Assembly (NCBI GenBank): GCA_009712635.1 | Contig: WASS01000015.1 | Coordinates: 744,001 to 808,000 of the forward strand | Direction: 5' to 3' | Length of the DNA stretch: 64,000 bases | DNA from: Hungatella sp. | GTDB taxonomy: Bacteria; Bacillota; Clostridia; Lachnospirales; Lachnospiraceae | Shown: positions 35,959 to 39,273 of the stretch, one piece after another | Numbering within the stretch: the stretch's first letter is position 1 | Layout: the number at the start of each line of letters is the position of its first letter | The notes under the pieces: model-generated | The model's input: only the letters and a program-made list of their open reading frames with translations | Told to the model about the DNA's origin: nothing | Database searches by the model: none | Position numbers and translations under genes: made by a program

Positions 35959-38076
35959 TTATACTTCAAAAATCAGATCGCCGTAGCTTGGAAGTGGCCA
36001 TAAATCCTTATCTACAATCATTTCCAGTTTATCTGCCGGCTCACGAAGAGCTGCCATTGCAGGTACTACTTCACTGTGGTAAGCAGCTGCCTGTTCTTTG
36101 TTTTCTCCAATTGCTGCACATTTGTCAGTAATATCAATGAGAGCGGAAAGTGCTACCTTCATATCAGAAAGATATGCGCTCACCTCGGTGAGAAGCTCTT
36201 CCTGTACACTGGTATCAGCAGACGGACATGCTGACTTAACCTTTCCTAAAGAATCTGCAAGAACGGTTGTATATTTCACAACTGCCGGAATCAACTGCTT
36301 TCCTGCCATATCAATCATGGTTCTTGCTTCAATATTAATGGCTTTTGAATAGGTCTCATATTCGATCTCAACACGGGACTCTAACTCAGCCTTTGTAAAT
36401 ACCTTGAATTCTTCAAACATGCTGATTGATTTTTCTTTTGTAAGTGCAGGGATTGCATCAACCATTGCTTTGATGTTTGGAAGTCCTCTTCTCTCTGCTT
36501 CTTCTACCCATGCATCAGAATAACCATTGCCGTTAAAGATTACTCTCCTATGTGCTGCCAGCTGTTCTTTAATCATATCATGGACTGCCGTATCAAAGTC
36601 TTCTGCTTTCTCAAGTATATCAGCCGCTTCCTTAAATGCCTCTGCTGTAATGGTATTTAATACAACGTTAGGTGATGAGATGGAATCAGAAGAACCTACC
36701 ATACGGAATTCAAATTTATTACCGGTGAATGCAAATGGTGAAGTTCTGTTTCTGTCAGTTGCATCTTTAAATAAATCTGGCAGAGTCTTAACGCCTGTCT
36801 TTAAGGTACCGCCTGACTTGGAGTGAGTTGCTTCACCTGTGCTGCAAAGCTGATCCACTACGTCCTCAAGCTGTTCGCCGATGAATACGGAAATAATTGC
36901 AGGAGGTGCCTCGTTTGCACCAAGTCTGTGATCGTTTCCAACATCTGCTGCAGACTGACGGAGGAGATCGGCGTGCTTATCAACTGCCTTTAAGATACAG
37001 GATAATACCAGTAAGAACTGAATGTTCTCATGTGGTGTTTCGCCTGGATTTAATAAATTAATACCGTCATCACTGGTTAAGGACCAGTTGTTATGCTTAC
37101 CGGAACCATTAACACCTGCAAATGGCTTCTCATGAAGCAGACAGTTTAATCCATGACGGCCTGCAACCTTCTTTAAGGTTTCCATAACAATATGATTGTG
37201 ATCAACTGCCACATTGGCCTGCTCATAGATTGGTGCCAGCTCATGCTGAGCCGGTGCAACCTCATTGTGCTGGGTCTTTGCAGGTACGCCAAGCTTCCAG
37301 AGTTCTTCATTTACTTCCTTCATATAAGCTGCAATTCTCTCACGAATGGAACCAAAGTAATGGTCTTCCATTTCCTGTCCCTTAGGAGGCATTGCACCGA
37401 ATAAGGTTCTTCCGGCGTAAATTAAGTCTTTTCTCTGTAAATATTTTTCATGATCAACAATGAAATATTCCTGCTCCGGTCCAACGGAAGGAGTTACTCT
37501 CTTTGAAGTGGTGTTGCCAAACAGTCTTAAGATTCTTAAAGCCTGCTCATCAACTGCTTCCATGGATCTTAAGAGAGGAGTTTTTTTATCGAGCGCTTCT
37601 CCTGTATAAGAACAGAAAGCAGTAGGAATACAAAGTGTAACACCAATTGCATCTTCTCTTAAAAACGCAGGTGAGGTACAATCCCATGCAGTATAACCTC
37701 TTGCTTCAAAGGTCGCTCTTAATCCACCGGAAGGGAAGGAAGAGGCATCTGGCTCGCCTTTTACCAGCTCTTTACCGGAAAACTCCATGATTACCTTACC
37801 TTCTGATGTGGGAGAGGAGATGAAGGAGTCATGCTTCTCGGCAGTAATGCCTGTCAGCGGCTGGAACCAGTGTGTATAGTGAGTTGCGCCTCTCTCAATT
37901 GCCCAATCCTTCATTGCATGAGCTACTACATCTGCAATGGAAGGATCCAGTTCTGCACCGTCTTCAATTGTTTTCTTTAATTTCTTGAAAACGCTTTTAG
38001 GCAGACGCTCTCTCATAACGGTCTCGTTAAATACATTCTTACCGAACAGCTCGGCTACATTCACAACTTCGCTCAT
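35959..38076 (-). CDS. glnN: Glutamine synthetase type III
   Basis: Makes glutamine from glutamate, ammonium and ATP, the main ammonium-assimilating step. The 705-residue length identifies the type III family. Conserved blocks include [46 protein letters not shown] and [23 protein letters not shown]. The first bases of the predicted transcript form a leader hairpin related to that of glnK. Near 24 kb from glnK-amtB, it completes the nitrogen-capture set: transporter, sensor and synthetase. Confidence 0.96.
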
Positions 38077-38171
38077 AAATTTTCCATCCTCTCATATTAA
38101 TTTCCACTTAATAAAATTAAGTCTGATTGTTATATTAGTCTCCTCATTATCTGAATATGCGCATAAATCAG

Positions 38172-38210
38172 AAAAGGCGCCCTCCTATCATAAGGAGAAC
38201 GCCATTGTTC
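38172..38210 (-). promoter_or_regulatory. glnN leader: antiterminator/terminator pair
   Basis: On the minus strand a hairpin pairs GAAC (38210-38207) with GTTC (38200-38197) around AATGGC, whose first A and fourth G fit the ANTAR-target hexaloop rule. The next hairpin, CTCCT with AGGAG around TATGAT, can extend into GGCGTTCTCCT/AGGAGGGCGCC (38203-38176) plus TTTT, an intrinsic terminator that consumes the first hairpin. A weak TTGATT-17-TATTTT promoter (38245-38217) would start RNA right at this element. ANTAR binding is inferred. Confidence 0.62.
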
Positions 38211-38280
38211 TTAATTAAAATAAACCATTTTCCTAAAAAAATCAAGTACTTTTTTCAAAAATATTTTTTTTAGAAGGTTT

Positions 38281-39144
38281 TTAAGCTTTTCCAACAGAAC
38301 CGAATAACTCCATCTTCTCTTTTACAGTCGCTTTAATAGCATCCGTTCCTGGTGCAAGAAGCTTACGAGGATCAAATCCCTTACCCTCTAAATCTTTGCC
38401 TGCTTCAATATACTTACGGGTTGCTTCTGCAAAGGTAAGCTGGCATTCTGTGTTAACGTTGATCTTTGCTACGCCAAGGCTGATGGCCTTTTTAATCTGG
38501 TCTTCGGGAATACCTGTCCCACCATGAAGAACAAGAGGCATACCGCCTACTTTATCTTTTACAGCTGCCAGAGTATCAAAGCTTAAACCTGCCCAGTTTG
38601 CCGGATATTTTCCATGAATGTTGCCAATTCCTGCTGCCAGCATGGTTACGCCTAAATCAGCGATCTGCTTGCACTCATCAGGATCTGCACACTCACCCAT
38701 ACCAACTACTCCGTCTTCCTCGCCGCCGATGGAGCCAACTTCTGCTTCGATGGAAAGACCCTTTTCATTACAAACCTTTACAAGTTCAGTTGTCTTTTCC
38801 ACATTCTCAGCGATTGGATAATGGGAACCATCAAACATGATGGAAGAAAAACCTGCCTCGATGCACTTATAACAGCCTTCATAAGAACCGTGATCCAGAT
38901 GAAGTGCCACTGGAACGCTGATCTTTAATTCCTCTATCATGGCTTTCACCATAGCTGTTACAGTTTTATAACCTGTCATGTATTTGCCAGCGCCTTCGGA
39001 AACTCCCAGAATAACCGGGGATTTCAGTTCTTCGGCTGTCAGTAATACAGCCTTTGTCCACTCAAGGTTGTTGATGTTGAACTGTCCAACTGCGTATTTT
39101 CCATCTCTTGCTTTTTCAAGCATCTCTTTTGCTGAAACTAACAT
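38281..39144 (-). CDS. fba: Class II fructose-bisphosphate aldolase
   Basis: Zinc-dependent glycolytic/gluconeogenic enzyme that splits fructose-1,6-bisphosphate. The 287-residue protein has VPVALHLDHGSYEGC (catalytic Asp and zinc His), GNIHGKYPANWAG, and LVLHGGTGIPEDQIKKAI with the third zinc His. Length and motifs are those of the shorter class II form. ATG 39144 has GGAGG eight bases upstream, unlike an in-frame ATG five codons earlier. A TATAAT lies at 39190-39185. It lies upstream of glnN but each has its own promoter. Confidence 0.96.
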   Translation of the reverse strand: MLVSAKEMLEKARDGKYAVGQFNINNLEWTKAVLLTAEELKSPVILGVSEGAGKYMTGYKTVTAMVKAMIEELKISVPVALHLDHGSYEGCYKCIEAGFSSIMFDGSHYPIAENVEKTTELVKVCNEKGLSIEAEVGSIGGEEDGVVGMGECADPDECKQIADLGVTMLAAGIGNIHGKYPANWAGLSFDTLAAVKDKVGGMPLVLHGGTGIPEDQIKKAISLGVAKINVNTECQLTFAEATRKYIEAGKDLEGKGFDPRKLLAPGTDAIKATVKEKMELFGSVGKA

Positions 39145-39273
39145 ATCACAGACCTCCATATTATTTATTGTCTTACATTTTTTTATTATAACCTATTTTA
39201 ACTTATTTGGAAAGTTTATTTTTTCAAAGATTGTTTTTTTTATAACAAAGTTACATTTACTTTCAAAACTATT

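Follow-up and report, generated by a model that had tools for sequence, protein, structure and literature searches.

The glnN gene of a Hungatella sp. genome of 5.6 Mb is preceded by a short leader in which two predicted hairpins overlap, and the question raised by this locus is whether that leader is a transcription attenuator worked by an ANTAR protein and, if so, whether one hexaloop or two is involved. The window, i.e. the whole stretch of DNA analysed here, comprises 64,000 nucleotides of contig WASS01000015.1 (assembly GCA_009712635.1). An initial annotation of the window had proposed an ANTAR-style switch for glnN; in our view this idea is well supported, and the leader probably acts mainly through one hexaloop. 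The features on which the argument turns are the following (positions are those of the window).

38281..39159, minus strand: gene for a class II fructose-bisphosphate aldolase, on the upstream side of glnN
38240..38245, minus strand: -35-like hexamer TTGATT (4/6 consensus), read by eye and kept across the genus
38217..38222, minus strand: -10-like hexamer TATTTT (4/6 consensus), read by eye, after a 17-nt spacer and 6 nt 5' of the hairpin
38197..38210, minus strand: putative antiterminator hairpin P1, 14 nt, GAAC / loop AATGGC (A1, G4) / GTTC, based on the sequence, folding and family covariation
38176..38203, minus strand: terminator-like hairpin GGCGTTCTCCT-TATGAT-AGGAGGGCGCC, 11/11 pairs, based on the terminator scan, folding and covariation
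38175..38186, minus strand: possible second A1/G4 hexaloop AGG-AGGGCG-CCT, 10 nt after P1 in the 3' arm of the terminator; doubtful, -0.8 kcal/mol
38172..38175, minus strand: U run TTTT after the terminator stem; short (TTTTC)
38138..38171, minus strand: 34-nt block CTGATTTATGCGCATATTCAGATAATGAGGAGAC, 3' of the terminator, kept with changes in the genus
35959..38076, minus strand: glnN, type III glutamine synthetase of 705 aa (Pfam GSIII_N, 5e-83), the presumed controlled gene

The promoter-like pair TTGATT-17-TATTTT is weak by consensus (8/12), yet conserved in the genus; it was not reported by the automatic scan of the leader region. It sits between the aldolase gene and P1 and is followed 6 nt later by GAACAATGGCGTTC, which overlaps the terminator-like hairpin, and the transcript of glnN is predicted to start near 38210. 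Of the 12 loci with glnN matches of E = 0, 9 have the aldolase gene on the upstream side, in L044 at a distance of about 1 kb.

The sequence confirms the P1 stem as first described, with the arms GAAC (38210-38207) and GTTC (38200-38197) enclosing the loop AATGGC (38206-38201) with A at position 1 and G at position 4. The stem CTCCT/AGGAG, which had been taken for a second element, is indeed part of the 11-bp terminator, but as the top of that structure and not as an element of its own. The terminator-like hairpin covers part of the loop and the 3' arm of P1, and since the two share the bases 38203-38197 they are mutually exclusive, as the initial annotation had supposed; both stems covary in the family (see below). 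In a scan of 601 bases, both strands included, 2 terminator-like sites were reported (shuffles: 0.4 +- 0.5). The folding energy of the terminator-like hairpin is -19.0 kcal/mol (z -6.2) and that of P1 alone -1.6 kcal/mol; the former is so much more stable that P1 needs help to win. Strong termination by the genus leaders is nonetheless uncertain, judging from the shortness of the U run, which moreover begins with A in 3 of 24 of them.

The 34-nt block at 38138-38171 contains an inner palindrome, TATGCGCATA, found in many genus leaders, and carries GAGGAGAC, which is able to pair with the 5' arm of the terminator (AGGAGA with UCUCCU). This pairing was considered as a protein-free antiterminator and rejected as not general, the AGGAGA block being missing at the sister-genus locus L029. 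A leader peptide starting at the ATG of the loop was also dropped, because by eye the reading frames differ among relatives.

All 25 genomes of the genus possess glnN, and 24 of the leaders are readable, one being cut by a contig end. The alignment of orthologous leaders, which had been suggested as a check, revealed the element in 24/24, the window's own included, and thus it is not a product of chance; both hairpins and the promoter-like region are kept throughout. Covariation is not visible inside the genus (0/16 pairs), because the terminator stem hardly varies there; it appears across the family. Position 1 of the P1 loop is A in 8 of the 24 leaders (L003-L010) and G in 16 (L011 and L013-L027), G being found also in the sister-genus leader L029. 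The G1 form of P1 folds into five base pairs capped by a tetraloop, and the occurrence of A1 and G1 in sister species of one genus provides a natural experiment on the loop code of ANTAR proteins.

Two covariance models were used to follow the element beyond the genus, with E-values that are rough in both cases. R1, built from the genus leader, matched 39/200 family genomes, before glnN and also before glnA, PII, ABC transporter and ATP-grasp genes, and all these loci have in common no more than the small hairpin and the terminator. The 25 rows of R2 were taken from 22 family loci, that of the window among them, and from 3 genus loci; 22 of the rows had been picked by a filter that demanded four P1 pairs, and the terminator was the sole structure of the model. 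R2 yielded 124 matches in 96/200 family genomes. The following gene is glnN in 44 cases, glnA in 24, PII in 9, amt, gltB and an amino-acid-type ABC transporter gene in 4 each, and asnB in 2, so that this nitrogen core stands behind 91/124 matches (70/102 outside the training rows) and the proposed link to nitrogen genes is borne out. The others are genes for circularly permuted (CP) ATP-grasp proteins (10), PPDK-N domain proteins (4), purF (2), LuxR-type regulators (2), lrp (1) and an argD-like gene (1), while 13 matches have no assignment. The downstream genes were called by tblastn in 88/124 cases and by sequence in 23, 22 of the latter being backed by Pfam matches and the remaining one (L128) by nothing but NCBIfam matches below the cut-off; the ABC gene at L107 matched in tblastn only the reference from its own locus, where the open reading frame (L048) is an ABC ATPase.

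Several of these genes deserve comment on their own account. The recurrence of the CP-ATP-grasp genes (L050, L046, L081, L106, L118, L134 and others) and of the PPDK-N genes (L089, L128, L145, L148) behind a nitrogen leader suggests a link of both to nitrogen metabolism. Three ammonium transporters behind the leader (L142, L183, L188) are fused to a C-terminal PII domain according to Pfam, and purF, for the glutamine-consuming first step of purine synthesis, is preceded by the leader in two genera (L127, L186). Outside the motif, Rfam identified a TwoAYGGAY RNA (L190, 193-356, plus strand) and a c-di-GMP-I riboswitch (L071, 391-473, minus strand) near nitrogen loci.

The Rfam comparison that the initial annotation had recommended did not bear it out: there was no ANTAR match, and no family scored above its gathering score in the window or over the motif in 20 loci. 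The matches below that score (PyrR, RsaE and others) are weak and scattered, and we ascribe them to the composition of the AT-rich terminator region.

In a sample of the whole class, R2 matched 14/341 genomes at E <= 1e-4. Eleven of these 14 matches are outside the family, and by eye 3 precede glnN, 3 a glnA-like gene and 1 amt, with 4 less clear; for two of the 3 glnA-like matches (G288, G512), an ANTAR match occurs ~1.8 kb downstream and on the same strand. A simple pattern scan returned at least 118 stretches, and among the 80 listed some are outside Clostridia (e.g. Verrucomicrobiales, Myxococcales, Balneatrix), which may be due to chance. A Clostridia-wide nitrogen regulon run by single-hexaloop attenuators, with the hexaloop at the 5' end of the RNA and no recruitment hairpin, is a tentative extension, to which we give somewhat less than an even chance.

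In the genome that harbours the window, glnN is the one strong R2 match (2.3e-9), the others scoring 0.0086, 0.037 (twice) and 0.065. The match at 0.0086 (L059, C8:120075-120111, minus strand) precedes a gene for an ABC solute-binding protein (SBP_bac_3), and that at 0.065 (L062, C29:3164-3206, minus strand) precedes an Lrp/AsnC-type gene and has the loop AAAAGC, without G4. Both may be real, since the same Pfam families stand behind the leaders L179 and L103 in other genera. A match on C26 (0.037) is attributed to chance, as its 14-mer is unable to form a four-pair stem and no open reading frame was found within 500 nt. The R2 search did not find the element in the leader of the genome's own glnA (L002, upstream of 7303, minus strand). 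That leader exhibits a strong promoter (TTGACA, TATATT) and, by eye, other terminator-like hairpins, and this glnA may have a different attenuator.

Across the family, 6 of the 11 pairs of the terminator stem show changes on both sides, and when the partner strand is slid the fraction of paired cells falls from 98% to 54-66%. The P1 stem carries more weight, since the first four bases of this stem stay unpaired when the terminator forms. An initial covariation test of P1 that included the R2 rows was biased by the training filter and was therefore repeated on the 102 other matches. In these, the outer pair is standard in 92/102 (1000 shuffles: mean 74, max 82), the third pair in 102/102 (mean 91, max 96), and the second pair in 101/102, which is little above the expectation (~100); the P1 pairs are not part of the R2 structure, though R2 scores the P1 sequence, and the shuffles ignore relatedness. 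The closing pair is an invariant C-G (124/124) and the pair adjoining it is A-U in 99/124. In the loop, G4 occurs in 124/124 family leaders and A1 in 106/124, the usual form being A-A-N-G-G-C/U, so the A1 emphasised in the initial annotation holds for the window and for most of the family, but only for the minority of the genus leaders given above.

The hairpin also tends to lie close to the predicted start of transcription. A -10-like box is present at a median distance of 10 nt 5' of the hairpin in 109/124 family leaders (81 expected in shuffled upstream DNA), and its gap is 5-13 nt in 66% of leaders against 30% in shuffles, such boxes being frequent in AT-rich DNA. A clear two-part promoter is recognizable in 75/124 leaders, the window's own falling below that threshold; in these 75 the RNA 5' of P1 would be 8 nt or shorter in 57 and 15 nt or longer in 9.

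A search for an ANTAR gene in the genome, likewise suggested by the initial annotation, identified a single PF03861 protein (1.1e-16) of 182 aa, encoded directly after glnA. The same arrangement is found for 22 of the 24 glnA matches of the family, 17 inside the fetched stretch and 5 by coordinates (G136, G206, G042, G091, G171), and at the remaining two (L121, L184) the contig breaks off. The RNA is present in 93/175 family genomes with an ANTAR gene and in 3/25 without one (Fisher p 6.8e-5, with 5 of the latter genomes entered by inference). Among the three exceptions, G161 has an 81% complete genome in which glnA reaches the end of its contig, and G138 and G221 stand on these data. In the class sample an ANTAR gene is found in 13/14 genomes with the RNA against 172/341 overall (p 8e-4), the exception being G506.

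The protein is 45-59% identical to 17 proteins encoded after leader-bearing glnA genes; these relatives align over the full length and, by eye, share a conserved tract of basic residues ahead of the ANTAR domain. The AlphaFold2 model (mean pLDDT 91) has Rv1626 and EutV as its best structural matches. The residues of EutV that contact the hexaloop have been named (PMC8934654), and we transferred their numbers to the alignment by matching the named residues to the chain sequence. K149, E160 and M172 are kept in 25/25 aligned proteins; R168 is Q in 25/25, R175 is G or S, Y164 is H in 20/25 and R177 is replaced. The position of the phosphate-accepting Asp54 is occupied by G (22), S (2) or T (1), which makes EutV-style phosphorylation unlikely; with a receiver-like domain that lacks the aspartate, the protein probably responds not to a kinase but to a partner or ligand, much as AmiC controls AmiR.

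Computation shows two mutually exclusive, covarying structures, a nitrogen gene context and a linked ANTAR gene, and from these we infer binding by the ANTAR protein, antitermination, a nitrogen signal and the sufficiency of one hexaloop. As regards the last, the loop TATGAT, which had been considered a partial second hexaloop, does not qualify: it is the apex of the terminator, which varies in size and sequence, it lacks A1, and 0/17 of the six-nt apical loops among the 124 leaders carry A1/G4. Nor are A1/G4 hexaloops enriched upstream of the hairpin (15/124 leaders against 13.9 in shuffles). By analogy with eut, the conserved hairpin would correspond to the antitermination hairpin P2 of EutV targets, and the recruitment hairpin, called P1 in that system, appears to be missing here.

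A more serious candidate is a mini-hairpin formed from the 3' arm of the terminator (AGG-AGGGCG-CCT in the window, the variant GGG-AGGGCG-CCT in some genus leaders, RAG-ARCGCC-YUU in glnA leaders), which would make the element a dual-hexaloop ANTAR target. The window leader passes the published rule (3 bp, A1/G4, linker of 10 nt), as do 15 other genus leaders (16/24), but the stem is lost in the remaining 8, is worth so little energy in the window, and would be complete only while the U run is being made; moreover, it lies in the 3' arm of the terminator and not at its 5' base as in eut. The glnA leaders may be partly of the dual kind, given that their loop, when placed by reference to the 3' arm, shows A1 in 22/24 and G4 in 24/24 and that an extra C able to close the stem follows the arm in 8/24 of them against 1/100 others. 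Some downstream A1/G4 hexaloop occurs in 50/124 leaders (25.5 +- 4.1 in shuffles), and 27 of the 183 possible hexaloop hairpins at linker 5-12 are A1/G4 where 14 are expected from the positions taken apart; on the other side, C1/C4 (41) and G1/C4 (36) loops are more numerous at these linkers, a purine-rich arm followed by U gives such stems by composition, and an A1/G4 hairpin at linker 5-12 is found in only 26/124 family leaders (12 of them before glnA) and is absent from 98/124. We therefore regard the dual-hexaloop explanation as unlikely for the element at large. Less likely still is a P1/terminator switch worked by a small molecule, as in a glutamine-type riboswitch, or by another RNA-binding protein: it would accommodate the three genomes without an ANTAR gene, the altered EutV contacts and the G1 loops common in genus glnN leaders, and the cyanobacterial glnA RNAs, found with similar genes, are riboswitch candidates (PMC2864571), but a hairpin of 14 nt offers little room for a ligand pocket, its loop fits the ANTAR code, an ANTAR gene stands behind nearly every leader-bearing glnA and co-occurs with the RNA, and G161 is an incomplete genome.

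That there is no switch at all, and that the structure serves just to terminate aldolase transcription or, as a 5' hairpin, to stabilise the glnN message, seems very improbable. The terminator stem does begin 77 nt after the aldolase stop codon and has a short, weak U run; yet this element also precedes glnA, PII, amt, gltB and others, a promoter-like pair intervenes between the aldolase gene and the hairpin, and covariation ties the four bases on the 5' side of the loop to the 5' arm of the terminator, for which a terminator has no need.

The reading that we accordingly prefer is ANTAR antitermination in a variant that relies mainly on a single hexaloop and is close to NitR of Clostridium. 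As long as no active regulator is present, the eleven bases that begin at loop position 4 would pair with the downstream arm, giving the terminator ahead of glnN; under nitrogen shortage, the product of the ANTAR gene that follows glnA would bind the hexaloop of the nascent 14-nt hairpin and hold GGCGUUC off the terminator, so that the polymerase could continue into glnN. Several observations were counted against this reading in setting our confidence in it: the need for both hexaloops in eut and the formal second hexaloop of the window leader, the prevalence of G1 in the genus, the changed EutV contacts and the short U run, the three genomes that have the RNA and no ANTAR gene, and the genome's own glnA without the element. 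If the Clostridia-wide single-hexaloop regulon suggested above is real, one hexaloop can suffice, against the model in which EutV-type proteins must meet two in succession, and the pseudo-receiver NitR-like protein with a conserved basic tract before its ANTAR domain would be adapted to a single hexaloop. The leaders would also represent a likely nitrogen-control circuit for Lachnospiraceae.

This bears directly on published models of ANTAR targets. A1 and G4 are the loop bases of the EutV, NasR and AmiR targets (PMC3369931), and Ramesh 2012 defined the motif as a dual hexaloop with both hairpins needed in eut (PMC3369931). According to Walshe 2022 (PMC8934654) the ANTAR dimer contacts one hexaloop at a time and the minimal site is redefined as one hexaloop, M172 being suggested to keep tetraloops out; both hexaloops are still considered necessary for antitermination, and the extent to which single ones serve ANTAR proteins is said to call for more bioinformatic and experimental study, with the expectation that they occur in settings free of the time limit that a transcribing polymerase imposes. 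The present leaders provide a large natural set for that question, as they are attenuators, in which time does limit, with paired genes and a linked regulator. We found no description of such a single-hexaloop leader RNA in the open-access literature, although the supplementary tables of Ramesh 2012 may already list some.

The eut leaders of Enterococcus faecalis share with the present element the A1/G4 hexaloop overlapping a terminator, and EutV shares with the protein described here the ANTAR fold and the contact residues K149, E160 and M172 named in PMC8934654. The eutP leader also has the same A-U and C-G pairs adjoining the loop, and changing them disrupted induction (PMC3369931), while Walshe sees only backbone contacts at these pairs (PMC8934654). 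The differences are that here no recruitment hairpin precedes the hexaloop, which lies at the predicted 5' end of the RNA, that a second hexaloop is lacking in most leaders and doubtful in the window, and that the protein has no phosphate-accepting aspartate and several changed contacts. NasR/nasF and AmiR/amiE are likewise cases of ANTAR antitermination of nitrogen-related operons, AmiR also having a pseudo-receiver (PMC8934654), but with dual hexaloops and at single loci (PMC3369931). The nitrogen regulons predicted by Ramesh 2012, e.g. in Desulfotomaculum, have motifs before PII, amt, and glutamate and glutamine synthase genes as here, but were found with a dual-hairpin model (PMC3369931). 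The cyanobacterial glnA RNA accompanies PII, glutamine synthetase, glutamate synthase and amt genes too, with another structure (PMC2864571).

The closest counterparts are two clostridial ANTAR proteins tied, as here, to glutamine synthetase genes: NitR of Clostridium saccharobutylicum, an antiterminator tied to the GS/GOGAT genes that acts on nitrogen limitation (PMC6316151), and Clo1313_2030 of C. thermocellum, proposed to be tied to the GS/GOGAT genes (PMC4676874). The likeness of our ANTAR protein to NitR is one of gene place. The available descriptions of NitR and Clo1313_2030 give no RNA target, whereas here the RNA is defined and extends to a broad set of genes that includes glnN.
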